Positions 9,217 through 20,819 of a DNA stretch of 39,623 nt are shown here, in pieces. Every line of letters starts with the position of its first letter. The first letter of the stretch is position 1. Origin of the DNA: Candidatus Saccharimonadota bacterium. Lineage in GTDB: Bacteria; Patescibacteriota; Saccharimonadia; Saccharimonadales; UBA4665. Position numbers and translations under genes: made by a program. The DNA lies in assembly GCA_027314885.1 (NCBI GenBank), contig DAHUZY010000005.1:1-39623 (forward strand). Direction: 5' to 3'. The notes below the pieces were generated by a model. The model searched no databases. It saw nothing but the letters and a program-made list of their open reading frames with translations, and had not been told where the DNA came from.

Positions 9217-9309
9217 TGGCGGAGAGGGAGGGATTCGAACCCTCGCGGGAGATTGCTCCCCCCTATCGATTTAGCAAACCGACCCCTTCAGCCTCTTGGG
9301 TACCTCTCC
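9217..9309 (-). tRNA. tRNA-Ser (anticodon GCT)
   Basis: 93 bases including an encoded CCA. The acceptor GGAGAGG pairs with CCTCTCC, the anticodon loop is TTGCTAA (GCT, codons AGC/AGU), there is a long variable arm (GGGGGGAG..CTCCC) and T-loop GGGTTCGAATCCC. The discriminator is G, as usual for serine tRNAs. Confidence 0.95.
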
Positions 9310-9420
9310 GTAAACAAGCCTACTACAAGACTATAGTATAGCTCATCTAGTTAATTGGCGGAACACTCGGGTCTGGAACTTTCCAGGGTTTTCGCCAGCT
9401 TATTCGCTCCGCCTTTTCAA

Positions 9421-9523
9421 AAAACGGGACACTTTGGCTGGACATGTCCCATTTCTGAAAGCATTATATCTGAAAAATGGCACAAATGGGACACGGGTTG
9501 CCTTAAAAAAGCTGTCCCGTTTT
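9421..9523. repeat. Nested inverted repeats built on GGGACA
   Basis: The outer pair AAAACGGGACA (9421-9431) and TGTCCCGTTTT (9513-9523) is an exact 11-bp inverted repeat. The inner pair TGTCCCATTT (9445-9454) and AAATGGGACA (9484-9493) is an exact 10-bp inverted repeat. GGACATGTCC (9440-9449) is itself a palindrome. The four sites alternate in orientation, which suggests a multi-site protein-binding locus, for example for the recombinase or a repressor, rather than a terminator. Confidence 0.7.
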
Positions 9524-9605
9524 AATAACGTCAACACCTTAAAATGAGACAAATGAGACACTTTAAAAGGGTTTAGCGGATGGCGTAAATTAAACCAAAA
9601 TTAAT

Positions 9606-9634
9606 TTGATTTATCTACAAGCTTATGTTAATAT
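9606..9634 (+). promoter_or_regulatory. Promoter of the 470-residue repeat-domain gene
   Basis: TTGATT (9606-9611), 17-base spacer, TAATAT (9629-9634), six bases to ATG 9641. This is a leaderless arrangement. An overlapping TATAAT (9632-9637) is an alternative -10. Confidence 0.65.
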
Positions 9635-9640
9635 AATGAT

Positions 9641-11053
9641 ATGTCTGAACTTCAGGGACCACCATCTCCTACTCCCGAAGGTCAACCCATAATTGACCAT
9701 GTTCCTGGTTTAAGCCCTGAATCCTTTGCCCAGCTTGGCCGTATCGGTCTGACTGATCTATATCAAGAGAGGTTAAACTTTGATAGCCCAGTAAAACTAT
9801 GGGAAACAGTCCAAGTTAGTAATTATTACGACCTTCAAAATAGGGTTACCTCCAATCCTACCCCGATCCAAGAAGAATTAGATATGGGTTCATATATAGA
9901 AGAGGTTGAGCCACAGTCTCGATTCGCTGTCTTACAGATGAGAGAAAAAGGATATAACGTAAATCGTGCAGGGTTTTCTTCCGATCCAGAACGTATAACC
10001 CAGAGGCTAGATCTAGACAAACCCCTTACTCCAGACGTTGTAGAAACACTTCAAAAGGAGGGGTTTGAACTAGGCACGGCGTATTTATATGATACGGACA
10101 ACCCAGATAGAGGTACATGGCAGGGTGAATGGGCAGGCAGTATTGTTTTTCGACCTGAAAATCCTACCGATTTATTTTCTATTACGCAAAGATGGGATAA
10201 ATTAGCAAGCCTTTTGCCAGATCTTGGCTCGCCTGCACCACCCGCAAATTATGGCAACGCTGTTAAGTTCCGTGAGGCTGCTGAAGCAGGAACGCTGCTT
10301 GACTACTACATGCCTAATGGACAATTTGACCCAGTAGGCACAAAGTACAGCAGAGCTAGAGACCCCTTTGCCGATAGTGAACTACTTCTTTCGGAAGACC
10401 CCGTTTTTGCTATGCGAGAACTGGTATTTATTGACCAATACCATGAATTAAAAGATAGGCTAGCAAAAAACCCTGAGCCCTCGGACGAAGAAGTTAGTAT
10501 GGGTGTTTACGTGGAGGAACTAGAGCCCCAAATTCGCGATGCCGTGTTGGAACTGAGGAGAAAAGGCTACAACACGGGTTCTTCTGGGTTTTGGGGGTAT
10601 GACCATGCTGGTCAAGCAATGGACATTGCTACACCTATTGACGACAAAACTAAAGCCAGACTAGCAGAGCATATGGTAGATGTAACAGATATGGGAATAC
10701 GCTTTAACCCTGATAACCCAAGCAATGTTGATGAAATTAAGAAGACGTGGGACTTGATAGCCAATATTTTGCCAGACCTAGGCAGGCATGCTGAGCCAGC
10801 CGAAAATATGGGCGCAGAAATCTTTAGGTATGCCACAAAACATAAAATGTACGATTTTTATCTTAAGGATTGGCTATATCAACATGGGGCTTTCAGCAGC
10901 AACGATCCATTGGGAATGACGTTGATACATGAAGGATTTAGTTTTGGCAAAGACGTTTATGCCCCTCAGCGAGAAGCAGAAGCTCGGCATAGACAGGTGG
11001 TCAGGCGCATATACCAAGAATATATGAAAGAGCCACAAACGAAGCTAATATAG
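9641..11053 (+). CDS. Protein with two copies of an unknown KGYNT/SSGF domain
   Basis: 470 residues, function unknown. It consists mainly of two diverged copies of a domain of about 150-190 residues (about 60-235 and 265-415). Each has the order NP.P..EE..MG.Y.EE.EPQ.R.AV...R.KGYN....GF, a variable stretch, FRP(E)NP or FNPDNP, then a WD..A..LPDLG..A.P helix-turn segment. The same domain occurs once in the next gene. There is no signal peptide or membrane segment, so it should be cytoplasmic; the composition is acidic. The gene is the first of three same-strand genes leading to a serine recombinase, and the trio may form one mobile unit. I recall similar hypothetical proteins in other CPR genomes but know of no function. 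Confidence 0.75.
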   Translation: MSELQGPPSPTPEGQPIIDHVPGLSPESFAQLGRIGLTDLYQERLNFDSPVKLWETVQVSNYYDLQNRVTSNPTPIQEELDMGSYIEEVEPQSRFAVLQMREKGYNVNRAGFSSDPERITQRLDLDKPLTPDVVETLQKEGFELGTAYLYDTDNPDRGTWQGEWAGSIVFRPENPTDLFSITQRWDKLASLLPDLGSPAPPANYGNAVKFREAAEAGTLLDYYMPNGQFDPVGTKYSRARDPFADSELLLSEDPVFAMRELVFIDQYHELKDRLAKNPEPSDEEVSMGVYVEELEPQIRDAVLELRRKGYNTGSSGFWGYDHAGQAMDIATPIDDKTKARLAEHMVDVTDMGIRFNPDNPSNVDEIKKTWDLIANILPDLGRHAEPAENMGAEIFRYATKHKMYDFYLKDWLYQHGAFSSNDPLGMTLIHEGFSFGKDVYAPQREAEARHRQVVRRIYQEYMKEPQTKLI

Positions 11054-11065
11054 CCCAGCATAATC

Positions 11066-11094
11066 TTGACCTAATTACATAAATGTGCTATCAT
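11066..11094 (+). promoter_or_regulatory. Promoter of the second repeat-domain gene
   Basis: TTGACC (11066-11071), 17-base spacer, TATCAT (11089-11094). The start ATG 11128 is about 27 bases from the predicted transcription start, with no clear Shine-Dalgarno sequence. Confidence 0.65.
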
Positions 11095-11127
11095 GAATAT
11101 AGTTAGCTAAAATAAAAAGCACTAAAA

Positions 11128-12483
11128 ATGAGCGAACAACTAGCCCCACCCGCTGCAGCACCACAAGGATTACCGCCTGGAATGGAGGCATTACCTCCTG
11201 GGTCTATGATGAACGCCCTACCTGAGCATGGTATCAATTTACCTGAACATGGTGTAGGGCTACCAGAACATGGCGTGGATCTGCCTGAATATGGAGTAGC
11301 TGAAATACCAGGGAGTAGCATGGGCAATGAAGCCAGCCTTAATTCAATCGCTCCTGGATATGAGCAGATGGCTATGCAGTGTGAAACGCCTGGTCAGCTA
11401 AGAGATGGTTTGTATCAGGGTATGTATTCTGAACTTCAAGATAGAGTCGCTAGCAACCCCACGCCAACTAACGAAGAACTGCGAATGGGGGCATACAAAG
11501 AAGAAATTGAGCCTCAGGCCCGTGATGCGGTAATGAACATGCGGGACAAAGGCTACAACACGAGCTCCTCTGGGTTTGGAGACCCCGCTGATGGCTATGA
11601 AACCCAACAACTAACATTGCGCACCCTGCTAACAAGTGAATCCGAAACCGCATTAAGGCAACAGGGTTTTTCGGTAGAAAACATTTCAGTCAAGCAGGGC
11701 AATACTGAAAGTAATCTTACAAACATTACCTTTCGGCCAAACAATCCTATGGATTTAGGTGAAATGAAGTCACGCTGGGATCAGCTGGCAGGTATGCTTC
11801 CCGATCGAGGCGAACCCGCACCTCCCGCTACTCATGGTAGCGCTGAAAGTTTTAGACAAGCAGCAAGGTCAAACACATTAAATGATTATGTGCAGAACTG
11901 GGAGTATAAACCAACCCAAGCCCAGAACGGGCTTAACCAGGAAGGTGCTTTCGGTACTAAAAACACAGCTCCTGAAGTAAAACCAACGGAAGATATGGGC
12001 AAACGCGAAGATGTAGGTACACATAGAGAGGCTCAGCCAGATCGCCCGAATTCGCTTCGAGAAAAAATACAATCAAGGGTAGAAAAAGAAGTCGAGGGCT
12101 TGATAACAAAAATAGGAGATAAAGCAGTTGAAGCTGTCATAAAAGCTGAGCTGGGTGAAGCGGGTATAGTGATGGAGCTAGCAAAGTTAGATGGTGAATC
12201 TAAGCAAGCTGGCCGTGTAGATGACCCTGCTAAGGCAGAAGTAATGGCCCATGCTTCTAAAGCTCAAGAGGAAGAGTTAGTGAAAGCTAATTCTGCGGCC
12301 GAAGAGGCTTCTAGACACATTGGCGTAAATGATGGCTGGCGTTCAGGCCGCTATATGACAGCAGAGAGCGAGCATCATTTTCAGCAACAAAGGGCTGAAA
12401 GAGCAAGGCAGGCTGCCGACCAGCTAGCCCAGGAAGCTGGTGAAACTTTTGAAAAAATGAAAAAGCTTGGTGAATCATCTTAA
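11128..12483 (+). CDS. Protein with LPEHG repeats, one KGYNT/SSGF domain and helical tail
   Basis: 451 residues, function unknown. Residues 1-70 are Pro/Gly/Met-rich and hold four tandem units of the type LPEHGV(G/D). Residues of about 90-255 are a third copy of the domain found twice in the upstream gene (NPTPTNEELRMGAYKEEIEP, KGYNTSSSGF, FRPNNP, WDQLAGMLPDRGEPAPPA). Residues of about 270-451 are highly charged, Ala/Glu/Lys-rich and predicted helical, partly coiled coil. No catalytic motif or membrane segment is seen. It has its own promoter 13 bases after the upstream stop. The N-terminal repeats suggest a flexible or binding segment; the shared domain suggests a common ligand with its neighbour. 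Confidence 0.75.
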   Translation: MSEQLAPPAAAPQGLPPGMEALPPGSMMNALPEHGINLPEHGVGLPEHGVDLPEYGVAEIPGSSMGNEASLNSIAPGYEQMAMQCETPGQLRDGLYQGMYSELQDRVASNPTPTNEELRMGAYKEEIEPQARDAVMNMRDKGYNTSSSGFGDPADGYETQQLTLRTLLTSESETALRQQGFSVENISVKQGNTESNLTNITFRPNNPMDLGEMKSRWDQLAGMLPDRGEPAPPATHGSAESFRQAARSNTLNDYVQNWEYKPTQAQNGLNQEGAFGTKNTAPEVKPTEDMGKREDVGTHREAQPDRPNSLREKIQSRVEKEVEGLITKIGDKAVEAVIKAELGEAGIVMELAKLDGESKQAGRVDDPAKAEVMAHASKAQEEELVKANSAAEEASRHIGVNDGWRSGRYMTAESEHHFQQQRAERARQAADQLAQEAGETFEKMKKLGESS

Positions 12484-12546
12484 TTCTCTAACAGATAGCT
12501 AAAATCTCCTAGACTTCCTACCCCATTGCGGTACCTTGTCCTTACT

Positions 12547-13911
12547 ATGCCGCCATCAGACCAACTGACCAATACCGCACCATACTTATTGCCAGAGGAA
12601 CAAGATGGCAAACCAATTCATACAGCCAATACTAAAATTATAAAAGTCGACTATTGTCTCTATGCTCGTAAATCCAGCGAGGATGATGAGCGGCAAGCGT
12701 TATCAATCGATTCCCAGACTAAAGAGATGACCCTGCAGGCTCAAGCCCAAAGCCTTAGCATAACGGACATCCGCAAAGAGAGTCATTCGGCCAAGATATC
12801 AGGTCGCAGGCCGGTATTTGAGCAAATGATTTCTGACGTCCGAACGGGGTTATTCAACGGAATTCTCAGCTGGGCTCCAGATAGGTTAAGCAGAAATGCC
12901 GGTGATTTAGGCGTTTTAGTAGATTTAATGGACCAGGGTAAACTAGTTGAGATACGAACTCACGGCCAAATATTCACTAATTCACCAAACGATAAGTTCC
13001 TTCTGATGATCTTATGCTCCCAGGCCAAACTTGAGAACGATAATCGGGGCATAAATGTAAAACGAGGTATGAAAACGAAGTGCGAGCTTGGCTTTAGGCC
13101 GAATATGACCCCGCTCGGTTATTTAAATGACCATTACTCCGGTAAGGGGCAAAAGAAGGTCTTTGTAGATAAAAAGCGAGCACCCATTATTAAACAAGCC
13201 TTTGAAAAAGTAGCAGATGGAGCTAGCGGCCGTGAAGCATACGACTTTATGAGATTAGCTGGCTTTAAAACAAAATCTGGTAAGGAATTTACAGTAAGCG
13301 GTGTCTATCGCATGCTTAATAACCCTTACTACTGCGGGATCTTTGAATTTCCAGTTGGTAGTGGTAAGTGGTATAAGGGCTCGTATAAACCAATTATTAC
13401 TAAAGAACTATTCGCTGCAGTTCAGCAGAAAATGACAGTAGCCCCTAAGAGCAAGCCGGGCACCAAACAATTCGACTATATCAAGCTCTTTAAGTGTGGT
13501 CGTTGCGGTTCTGGCATCACTGCCCAGGATAAGTACAAAAAACATAAGAAAACTGGGCTCACCGCCAGATATGTTTACTATCACTGTACACAAGGCAGAG
13601 ACTTTTATTGTCCAGAGCCATATATCCGTGAAGAAAAGCTAGTTGAATCCCTACTGGGGCTGCTGAGCGGGCTCACAATTGAACAAATTGAAAGCCAAGA
13701 AGCTTTACATAACGAATTGGATAAATTTAGAAGATTATCCTCTGCAGTACTAGGCTACAGCGGTAGCGCGGAACAGCAGTCGGAGATCAACTTGCATAAC
13801 TTTGCTAAATACATCTTGACAGAAGGCACAACAGCAGAAAAACGAGCCTTAGTCTCCTGCATACAAGCCACGATCTATCTTAGAAATAAAGAGTTATTTG
13901 TAGAGCTTTAG
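12547..13911 (+). CDS. Serine recombinase (resolvase, recombinase and zinc-ribbon domains)
   Basis: 454 residues from ATG 12547; the track start TTG 12526 is also possible, and neither has a clear ribosome-binding site. The catalytic domain begins YARKSSEDDERQ, with nucleophile Ser probably S43 of YARKS, followed by SGRRPVFEQM and SWAPDRLSRNAGD carrying the conserved arginines. A recombinase domain follows (about 190-290, ending MLNNPYYCGIFEFP), then a zinc ribbon with FKCGRCGSG (about 319) and a later paired Cys in YYHCTQ..DFYC. The C-terminal coiled part is short, so the protein is smaller than phage large serine integrases. It should catalyse site-specific integration, excision or inversion. 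It lies between two tRNA-Ser genes at the end of the putative element. Confidence 0.9.
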   Translation: MPPSDQLTNTAPYLLPEEQDGKPIHTANTKIIKVDYCLYARKSSEDDERQALSIDSQTKEMTLQAQAQSLSITDIRKESHSAKISGRRPVFEQMISDVRTGLFNGILSWAPDRLSRNAGDLGVLVDLMDQGKLVEIRTHGQIFTNSPNDKFLLMILCSQAKLENDNRGINVKRGMKTKCELGFRPNMTPLGYLNDHYSGKGQKKVFVDKKRAPIIKQAFEKVADGASGREAYDFMRLAGFKTKSGKEFTVSGVYRMLNNPYYCGIFEFPVGSGKWYKGSYKPIITKELFAAVQQKMTVAPKSKPGTKQFDYIKLFKCGRCGSGITAQDKYKKHKKTGLTARYVYYHCTQGRDFYCPEPYIREEKLVESLLGLLSGLTIEQIESQEALHNELDKFRRLSSAVLGYSGSAEQQSEINLHNFAKYILTEGTTAEKRALVSCIQATIYLRNKELFVEL

Positions 13912-13968
13912 CCCCCGCCTAAGGCTGGTTTGAGATTTATTCAGTTAGGGATTTAACAAGCAGGTACG

Positions 13969-14125
13969 AAAAGTTCCAAAGTTACGAGCTTTTCAGGGTT
14001 AATTGCGCAGTTCCACACCGAAGTGGGGTCGGATCAAAACTGAGCCCGTGAGACAAAATTGAGACTTCTGAAGGACTTTTCACACCTCTTTCATTGTCTT
14101 TGACCTCTGTAAAAAGTTCCAAAGT
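13969..14125 (+). repeat. Direct repeat AAAAGTTCCAAAGT flanking recombinase-proximal non-coding DNA
   Basis: The same 14 bases occur at 13969-13982 and 14112-14125, the second copy ending six bases before the tRNA-Ser(TGA) 3' end. The interval is non-coding and contains GTGAGACAAAATTGAGAC (14049-14066), similar to the ATGAGACAAATGAGAC copy at 9544-9559, and TTTCAGGGTT (13991-14000), similar to 9381-9390. These are candidates for recombination sites but none is proven. Confidence 0.5.
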
Positions 14126-14130
14126 CTATC

Positions 14131-14220
14131 TGGCGGAGAGAGTGGGATTCGAACCCACGGTACCGTTGCCGGTACGGCACTTTTCAAGAGTGCTACCTTC
14201 AACCACTCGGTCATCTCTCC
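14131..14220 (-). tRNA. tRNA-Ser (anticodon TGA)
   Basis: 90 bases with encoded CCA. Acceptor GGAGAGA/TCTCTCC, anticodon arm CACTCTTGAAAAGTG with anticodon TGA, long variable arm GTACCGGCAACGGTAC, T-arm GTGGGTTCGAATCCCAC, discriminator G. A TATAAT box preceded by TG (extended -10, minus strand 14231-14239) lies just upstream. Confidence 0.95.
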
Positions 14221-14289: not shown

Positions 14290-14658
14290 ATGAAAAATAC
14301 GCAGCATAAGGCCGAAATTGCCGTCGCACAGGCCATAGCAACTTTCACCAAACTTGGTTATGGCGTTGCCCTTCCTCTCACGGAATCCGCTGCGTACGAC
14401 ATACTACTAGATGATGGACTGAAGATATATAGGTTGCAAGTTCGTTACAGTAAGGAACGTGACGTAGAGCTAAGAAAAATCCGCTCTAATGCAAGTGGCT
14501 ATATAGTAAAAAAGGTGAAGGCTCAGTCTTATGACTGGCTATATATATTTAGGCCGACGGGAGAAGAATATTTAATAAAGAAATGCTTAATAAATAGAAG
14601 GGCAATCAGACCGCTGGAAAAGCACCGGATAAACTCAACCGTAAAACATGAAGCCTAA
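14290..14658 (+). CDS. Small PD-(D/E)XK nuclease-like protein
   Basis: 122 residues. The pattern resembles the group I intron endonuclease-like PD-(D/E)XK family: an N-terminal helix with Glu (KAEIAVAQAIATF), GYGVALPLTE, YDILLDDG with the first acidic residue, then RLQVRYSKE, where the second metal-ligand position is Gln and the usual Lys is Arg. The later YDWLYIFRPTGEEYLI matches the region where such proteins have a terminal strand pair. The Q-x-R version of the E-x-K motif leaves catalysis uncertain. Members are found as stand-alone mobile nucleases. The gene stands alone, next to a tRNA, with its own palindromic operator. Confidence 0.6.
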   Translation: MKNTQHKAEIAVAQAIATFTKLGYGVALPLTESAAYDILLDDGLKIYRLQVRYSKERDVELRKIRSNASGYIVKKVKAQSYDWLYIFRPTGEEYLIKKCLINRRAIRPLEKHRINSTVKHEA

Positions 14659-19462: not shown

Positions 19463-19699
19463 ATGAAAACTGCTGTTTCTATTCCAGATAATGTATACAC
19501 TTCGGCTGAAAAGCTTGCAAGACGATTAGGCAAATCACGCAGCCAGCTCTACTCTCAAGCCATAAGTAGCTACTTATCTAAACACCAAAAAGAAGGCTTA
19601 ACAGCAAAATTGAATGAGGTCTACTCTGATGGCGATTCAAAGGTTGATCCCTTGCTTATAAATCTGCAAACTCGTTCTCTGTCAAAGGAAGAGTGGTGA
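19463..19699 (+). CDS. MazE/RHH-type antitoxin
   Basis: 78 residues. The N-terminal MKTAVSIPDNVYTSAEKLARRLGKSRSQLYSQAI matches a ribbon-helix-helix DNA-binding domain (strand 3-7, helices 12-21 and 26-37). The C-terminal 35 residues are acidic and would wrap the toxin, ending LSKEEW. It should bind the palindrome over its own promoter. The start ATG is leaderless. The stop overlaps the toxin start, the standard coupling for such modules. Confidence 0.85.
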   Translation: MKTAVSIPDNVYTSAEKLARRLGKSRSQLYSQAISSYLSKHQKEGLTAKLNEVYSDGDSKVDPLLINLQTRSLSKEEW

Positions 19700-20034
19700 A
19701 ACGTGGCCAGATATGGTGGGCGGAATTACCAGAACCTACCGCTTCAGAGCCAGGTTATAAGCGACCAGTAATTGTTGTGCAAGCGGACGAGTTTAATAAT
19801 AGTCTCATTAACACAGTAATAGTAGTAGCAATAACTTCTAATTTGAGGCTTGCCGATGCGCCTGGCAATTTGTATATCCCAAAGTCAAAAACTGGACTAG
19901 GAAAAGATTCGGTTGCTAATGTATCCCAGGTAGTTACTCTCGACAAGAGTTTCTTAAAGGAACAGATCAGTCAGCTTGATAGAGTAACTATTCAGCAGCT
20001 AGATGAAGGATTACAACTAGTCCTATCTTTATAA
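19693..20034 (+). CDS. MazF/PemK-family toxin
   Basis: 113 residues. The family marks are VKRGQIWWAELPEPTASEPGYKRPVIVVQ at the start (RG.IWWA.L....G....RPV.VVQ), VVVAITSNLRLADAPGNLYI in the middle, and SVANVSQVVTLDKSFL with the conserved Ser/Thr and Gln. MazF-type toxins cut mRNA at short sequences. It starts at GTG 19693 or GTG 19696, overlapping the antitoxin stop. The length is normal, so the toxin looks intact. Confidence 0.9.
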   Translation: MVKRGQIWWAELPEPTASEPGYKRPVIVVQADEFNNSLINTVIVVAITSNLRLADAPGNLYIPKSKTGLGKDSVANVSQVVTLDKSFLKEQISQLDRVTIQQLDEGLQLVLSL

Positions 20035-20169: not shown

Positions 20170-20442
20170 ATGACAACTACTACAGCTAAAAAATTAAGGG
20201 ACAATCTTAGTGAATACCTCGATAGATTACAAAGGGGTGAGGAAATTGTCATCATACGCCACTCAGAAATTATTGGCGTTCTCAAGCCTGCACAAAACTT
20301 ACATACCAATAATGGCTCTGCTTTGGCAGCAATGTTTAACCGAAACAAAGACTTTTTCAGTAGCAATAAAGGTAAAGTAAACGCATCAATACCTACCGAG
20401 GAACTGTACCATCACTCCCTGAACGAGTCGTATCAGCAATGA
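20170..20442 (+). CDS. Phd/YefM-family antitoxin
   Basis: 90 residues. MTTTTAKKLRDNLSEYLDRLQRGEEIVIIRHSEIIGVLKP is the Phd/YefM fold (DNA-binding dimer, residues 1-50), and the Asn/Ser-rich C-terminal 40 residues should mask the toxin. The stop overlaps the toxin start (ATGA). A strong palindrome upstream suggests autoregulation. Confidence 0.85.
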   Translation: MTTTTAKKLRDNLSEYLDRLQRGEEIVIIRHSEIIGVLKPAQNLHTNNGSALAAMFNRNKDFFSSNKGKVNASIPTEELYHHSLNESYQQ

Positions 20443-20819
20443 ATCGCACACTGGTAGACGCAAATGTTTTACTTGAAATTCTATTTTCCCGCAAGCTTTT
20501 AGATGTATGCCAGAAATTGCTGAGCGACCCAGCAAAAGAGTATGCGATTAGCGCATTGACTCTTCATATTATTTGGTACATGGCTGAAAGGTACAAATTA
20601 TCACCTGAGCATATAAACGATGTGCTATCGGTACTTATAGTCTTACCCTTAAGTTATCAAGCTATTAAACTTGCTAATAAGCGCTATGATAATAAAGATT
20701 TTGAAGACTGCTTACAGGCAGCTTGTGCAGAGGAAAACGACTGCCAAGAAATAATCACTATTGACAGGCATTTTCAAGAATATAGCCATACATTATTGTC
20801 GGTTACTATTGTTGAGTAG
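20439..20819 (+). CDS. PIN-domain (VapC-like) toxin
   Basis: 126 residues. The PIN catalytic pattern is present: LVDANVLLEILF (first Asp, residue 6), an acidic residue near ALTLHIIWYMAERY (Glu about 51), DNKDFEDCLQ (Asp about 88-92) and the terminal IITIDRHF (Asp about 107). PIN toxins are metal-dependent ribonucleases, often cutting tRNA or rRNA. The second subfamily acid position (usually S.....E) is shifted, so a divergent subgroup is likely. Coupled to the preceding antitoxin by a 4-base overlap. Confidence 0.85.
   Translation: MNRTLVDANVLLEILFSRKLLDVCQKLLSDPAKEYAISALTLHIIWYMAERYKLSPEHINDVLSVLIVLPLSYQAIKLANKRYDNKDFEDCLQAACAEENDCQEIITIDRHFQEYSHTLLSVTIVE

Follow-up and report, generated by a model that had tools for sequence, protein, structure and literature searches.

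A conserved multi-copy DNA array just inside one end of elements inserted at tRNA 3' ends across Patescibacteria

A large family of mobile elements (phages, small islands and apparent satellites), which target tRNA gene 3' ends throughout Patescibacteria, carries a conserved multi-copy DNA signal composed of GNNACA boxes just inside one end. As to its function we favour, at a probability of roughly 55%, a cis-acting protein-docking site beside attP, at the left end of tRNA-targeting serine-recombinase elements, through which recombination and mobilisation would be controlled in trans.

The array was examined in a 39,623-nucleotide stretch of DNA from a Candidatus Saccharimonadota bacterium (the window), where it extends over positions 9421–9561. 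Seven boxes make up this region, in the order forward (start at 9421), reverse (9445), forward–forward (9475 and 9484), reverse (9513) and forward–forward (9542 and 9551). Box 0 (AAAACGGGACA, 9421–9431, plus strand) and the inverted box 4 (TGTCCCGTTTT, 9513–9523, minus strand) form an outer inverted repeat that matches in 11 of 11 bases. An inner repeat pairs the inverted box 1 (TGTCCCATTT, 9445–9454, minus strand) with AAATGGGACA at 9484–9493 in 10 of 10 bases (92% over 13 nt when extended), and a 10-bp palindrome, GGACATGTCC, lies at 9440–9449. The preliminary description had reported these repeats of 11 and 10 bases, the palindrome and a forward–reverse–forward–reverse order, all of which proved exact in sequence and position, in an array larger than it had noted. 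It had overlooked the degenerate box AAATGGCACA (9475–9484), which forms a tandem of 9-bp spacing with the box at 9484–9493 (boxes 2–3: AAATGGCACAAATGGGACAC, 9475–9494, plus strand), as well as a second tandem, AAATGAGACAAATGAGACAC (9542–9561; boxes 5–6 taken as AAAATGAGACAAATGAGACAC, 9541–9561, plus strand), beyond the coordinates it gave. The tandem of boxes 2–3 is the part of the array best conserved across Patescibacteria. In relatives, the position of box 1 is kept, an inverted box downstream of the tandem, like box 4, is frequent, and a counterpart of box 0 could be aligned (L142, L135, L139 and L143).

No other cluster of GNNACA boxes of this kind is present elsewhere in the window, and the 7 matches per 150 bp in the array compare with a maximum of 2 across 300 Markov-simulated windows. 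The single box AAANGGGACA has eight copies in the whole 0.93-Mb genome, four of them in the array, compared with nine for the reversed control. Elsewhere in the genome the single box is therefore at chance level, and the cluster is unique. Frequent scattered occurrence, which by the preliminary description would have spoken against its reading, is thus not what the genome contains, and the frequency of the single box also eliminates a chromosomal regulon of a host factor.

The array is flanked by tRNA-Ser(GCT) (9217–9309) and the first of three same-strand genes. It belongs to an element of about 4.8 kb inserted at the 3' end of tRNA-Ser(TGA) (14131–14220, minus strand), and the distance from the left end of this element to the first box is about 65 bp. 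The end of this target gene, TGGCGGA at 14131–14137, is the right attachment core, and since the same 7-bp core recurs at 9356–9362, the element spans about 9356–14137. The left core continues into an element arm, ACACTCGGGTCTGGAACTTT, that is kept in relatives (attL, 9356–9382, plus strand); this pattern of core and arm is present in 20 of the 393 genomes of the order. The gap between tRNA-Ser(GCT) and tRNA-Ser(TGA) measures 35 bp in the relative G031 versus 4,821 bp in the window, which is consistent with insertion between the two tRNA genes. All three genes of the element lie on the plus strand. Two encode cargo: a 470-residue protein of no known family (9641–11053) and its 451-residue paralogue (11128–12483), which matches it at about 40% identity over part of the length and is seldom present in the family. 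The third (12526–13911) encodes a 461-residue large serine recombinase of the phage integrase family phrog_95, with Pfam Resolvase, Recombinase and Zn-ribbon domains and with YxRxS, DRxSR and zinc-binding cysteines that are conserved in 17 homologues. It stops 220 bp short of the tRNA-Ser(TGA) 3' end, and the right-end region between them (13912–14130, plus strand), which is conserved in elements with and without recombinase, contains the arm AAAGTTCCA (14113–14121) and no array boxes. From these domains and catalytic motifs, and from matching cores at both ends, the window element is predicted to be a large serine recombinase integrative element. With only two cargo genes of no known family beside the recombinase, and with no terminase or structural genes, it does not qualify as a temperate phage. 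Just beyond the target tRNA, positions 14290–14658 encode a PD-(D/E)XK endonuclease-like protein (PDDEXK_5). Downstream of tRNA-Arg are genes that resemble, as judged from sequence alone, a MazF/PemK-like toxin (19693–20034) and a pair of antitoxin and PIN-domain toxin (20170–20819).

Poor conservation among close strains was the second finding that by the preliminary description would have spoken against its reading; the array is conserved across the phylum Patescibacteria. The tandem unit GAGACAAATGAGACAC with its A/G variants (search pattern GRGACAAATGRGACAC) occurs 43 times, in 37 of the 393 genomes of the order, compared with 2 occurrences of the reversed control. An extended 21-mer of the tandem has 109 exact matches in the 85,000 species genomes of GTDB, where we estimate about 0.5 by chance for random sequence. 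Essentially all of these matches are from Patescibacteria; among the phylum-named matches listed, the one exception is labelled Pacearchaeota. The lineages among the matches listed include Saccharibacteria, Uhrbacteria, Moranbacteria, Nealsonbacteria, Doudnabacteria, Woesebacteria, Berkelbacteria, Dojkabacteria, Peregrinibacteria and others. Two relatives from the order (L034, L035) have a left attachment arm and a box order identical to those of the window. Only the inner two letters of the box differ among modules (GAG, GGG, GTT, GCG, GGC, GGA), and the remainder is constant; a matching inverted box in 4 of 12 variant modules versus 1.9 expected is uninformative as to covariation of the box letters. 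At the left ends of L165, L312, L332, L186 and L192, two to three array modules with differing inner letters are stacked (GTTACA, GCGACA or GGAACA with GAGACA), and some of these modules are preceded by an att-like GGTC..GAACC sequence of their own. They may represent stacked element ends or several specificities within one element.

A survey of 136 array loci defined the position and polarity of the array. In all 39 loci with a downstream tRNA gene, the nearest one is antiparallel and turns its 3' end toward the array, and the genes targeted among the array loci are those for tRNA-Ser, -Gln, -Asn, -Lys, -Arg, -Gly and -Glu. Considering the 35 bounded elements whose tRNA end is of the CCA type, the left-end core equals the 3' end of the element's own tRNA in 25, compared with 1 of 884 trials for the cores of other tRNAs. 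The right ends of the 39 bounded elements contain no array boxes (0/39), and the GAGACA-like letters near 14050 of the window fail the box pattern, so that an array at both ends could be eliminated. Downstream of the tandem, 73 of 135 loci have an inverted box (2.7 expected), with offsets of about 24–29 and 35–39 and none at 30–33 (a non-redundant set was also examined), while upstream inverted boxes cluster at -33/-32 relative to the tandem. The distances from core to tandem also cluster, at 29–31, 40–43, 51–54 and 65 bp, and Rayleigh tests on the GGTC distances were weakly positive for periods of about 10–13 bp. These spacings are suggestive of helical phasing, as for proteins on one face of the helix, although the relatedness of the loci weakens this reading. 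In one locus (L143, genome G099), an array element separates two tRNA-Ser(TGA) genes (740–829 and 2399–2488) at a distance of 1.6 kb from each other. In six others (L197, L180, L192, L206, L213 and L265), whole element ends or recombinases are tandemly repeated at distances of 1.4–9 kb, as expected from repeated insertion at one tRNA.

The commonest gene inside array elements is a recombinase of the same clade as that of the window (35 loci), always oriented from the array toward the tRNA. A search from the recombinase side recovered the tandem (up to 2 mismatches) upstream in 11 of 40 phylum-wide recombinase loci and in none of 40 with the reversed control; many of the 29 loci without a recognisable array in reach have left ends that are truncated, out of range or divergent. 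Near the closest recombinases (L032, L033), no array was found within the flanks examined. The array occurs in prophages, recognised by terminase genes (a ParB-methyltransferase and TerS/TerL module), in recombinase-only islands and in bounded elements without window-clade recombinase. The latter, 1.3–13 kb in size, account for 24 of the 39 tRNA-bounded elements, and the other 15 encode the recombinase, as the window element does. A group at tRNA-Ser without recombinase has both the right end (about 220 bp) and the array-bearing left end in common with the window element. The 25 commonest cargo families of the recombinase-less elements include neither an integrase nor a recombinase family; the varied cargo comprises a CBASS cyclase with a 2TM/Cap15 effector, a TdeIII restriction enzyme, a metal ATPase, NUDIX, cytochrome bd and more. 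The recombinase-less elements are candidate phage satellites. CBASS-like cargo, in which a gene resembling oligonucleotide cyclases lies next to one for a membrane effector of the Cap15 type, was seen in L125, L174, L210 and L223, of which L125 and L223 are tRNA-bounded and without recombinase. Another protein, of 350–480 residues with CxxC pairs and no PHROG match, occurs in 19 loci including prophages (L112, L117, L127, L130, L160, L176 and others), where its gene is often the first after the array and oriented toward it. In the viral contig L259, assembled sequence resembling a right end joins a left end, as in a circle or a tandem insertion.

The recombinase has the domain order of the large serine integrases of phages TP901-1, A118 and SPbeta and detectable homology to them, with only 22–29% identity among the best matches listed from the phage collection. 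To our knowledge, these three systems use short att sites and no accessory arrays. One-sided, asymmetric and apparently phased accessory boxes are a feature of lambda-type attP arm sites with their Xis/IHF complexes; the likeness would be one of working principle only, since arm sites belong to tyrosine integrases and the enzyme of the array elements is a serine recombinase. Satellites of the PICI and P4-like kinds generally have a tyrosine integrase gene of their own. The array elements resemble these satellites in that they are short, share ends with integrase-bearing relatives and carry anti-phage and other cargo (PMC9122126, PMC8628076), and differ in that the majority described above (24/39) encode no window-clade recombinase and that helper dependence is putative here. 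The nearest described precedent is that of the ssrA-specific islands of Dehalococcoides with the serine recombinase DsiB (PMC3146451), which according to the available text of that report likewise carry a serine recombinase, occupy the 3' end of a gene for a tRNA-like RNA, frequently in tandem arrangement, and have varied cargo and a conserved motif adjoining the repeat; some of them lack an integrase of their own. The same text describes a tmRNA target, a CcrB-like integrase with a six-gene module and a 20-bp repeat, and a multi-box array of tandem and inverted copies is not among the features it describes. The window element is not of this type: the targets are tRNA genes, and the DsiB/DsiA/ParB/Mom module genes are absent from it. 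Prophages have been reported in oral Saccharibacteria and Absconditicoccaceae (PMC7739484, PMC13059738); our search of the literature, preprints aside, returned no description of a tRNA/serine-recombinase family or of such an array in Patescibacteria.

How may the array work? It is kept in elements that have nothing else but the att cores in common. Its ligand must therefore be trans-acting, and what the array does should relate to the element as DNA. Its constant position next to the attachment core, always on a single side, speaks for a role in recombination. We therefore consider that the array probably serves as a docking site in the control of insertion and excision. Next to the core, several copies of one protein would assemble on the GNNACA boxes into a phased complex. 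The protein in question may be the recombinase, a directionality factor or a factor of another kind that a helper phage or element provides in trans. The docked complex would set the direction of recombination, that is, integration versus excision, and a ligand supplied in trans would also allow the mobilisation of recombinase-less elements. Against this model, known large serine integrases need only att sites of about 50 bp, and the familiar directionality factors act mainly on the integrase, not on a DNA array. The share of recombinase loci with a recognisable array, 11 of 40, also counts against it. The preliminary description had suggested a control or synaptic site of a recombinase element: membership in such elements is strongly supported, as the end that carries the array is the same in serine-recombinase elements and in apparent satellites with matching ends, and the proposed role is the most likely one from sequence comparison.

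It is unlikely that the array is an origin or packaging signal, either as a set of iterons recognised by a replication initiator or as a site of the pac/cos kind, common to phages of this family and the satellites that exploit them. In its favour, ParB-methyltransferase, TerS and TerL genes identify several array elements as prophages, recombinase-less elements bear defence cargo like phage satellites, and the combination of tandem and inverted boxes, variable in their inner letters, is iteron-like. However, the array stays at the att core at a constrained distance, whereas TerS is 1–12 kb away and variable, no common replication gene was found in array elements, and recombinase-only islands carry the array too.

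Quite improbable as well is an operator array, in which repressor sites would control element genes, possibly with immunity specificity encoded in the inner letters that differ among modules. Multi-copy inverted and direct boxes do look operator-like, and in some elements the recombinase gene starts 29–203 bp downstream of the array. In some Uhrbacteria elements this distance is 30–200 bp, where operator action is conceivable, and the arrangement also counts against docking. Yet the first gene after the array is oriented toward it in 78 of 127 loci (78:49), and these first genes are mostly unrelated. Since array elements also have no cargo gene in common, the array is not the operator of one gene. 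Nor do they share a regulator gene, and the window element consists of two unique cargo genes and a recombinase that is 3 kb from the array.

We regard it as very unlikely that the array insulates the element end at the RNA level, as a hairpin or bidirectional terminator. The RNA fold of the window array does beat shuffled sequences (z -4.75; units of relatives, z -2.3 to -4.5), and ATTTT or GTTTT follows 28 of the 73 inverted boxes. An intrinsic terminator with a short GC-rich stem, a tight loop and a U-run is nevertheless eliminated by loops of about 18–30 nt and by 62 of 135 arrays without an inverted partner; moreover, tandem direct copies are superfluous for a terminator, and the exact sequence is conserved across the phylum beyond what pairing alone demands. 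Covariance models from Rfam gave no match in 9310–9640 at E up to 1, in agreement with the earlier judgement that neither a tRNA nor a terminator explains the array. Finally, chance or a degenerate transposon relic without function is scarcely credible, for although inverted repeats of 10–11 bp are individually unremarkable, the cluster is far above simulations, and the conservation of position, polarity and sequence across many lineages already contradicts this explanation.

Returning to the docking model, we tentatively consider, as a possibility at less than even odds, a phylum-wide system of Patescibacteria in which a serine integrase works at attP with an asymmetric accessory array of the lambda kind, and the apparent satellites, short and mobilised in trans, keep only the att cores and the array. 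From the array it seems that accessory DNA sites adjoining attP may also serve serine integrases. For a recombinase clade without a close relative among the phage records searched, the array elements further yield numerous attP/attB pairs at tRNA genes. The mobilome of Patescibacteria has barely been described so far, and GNNACAAATGNNACAC next to the 3' end of a tRNA gene offers a means of finding and delimiting mobile elements, prophages and apparent satellites throughout the phylum.
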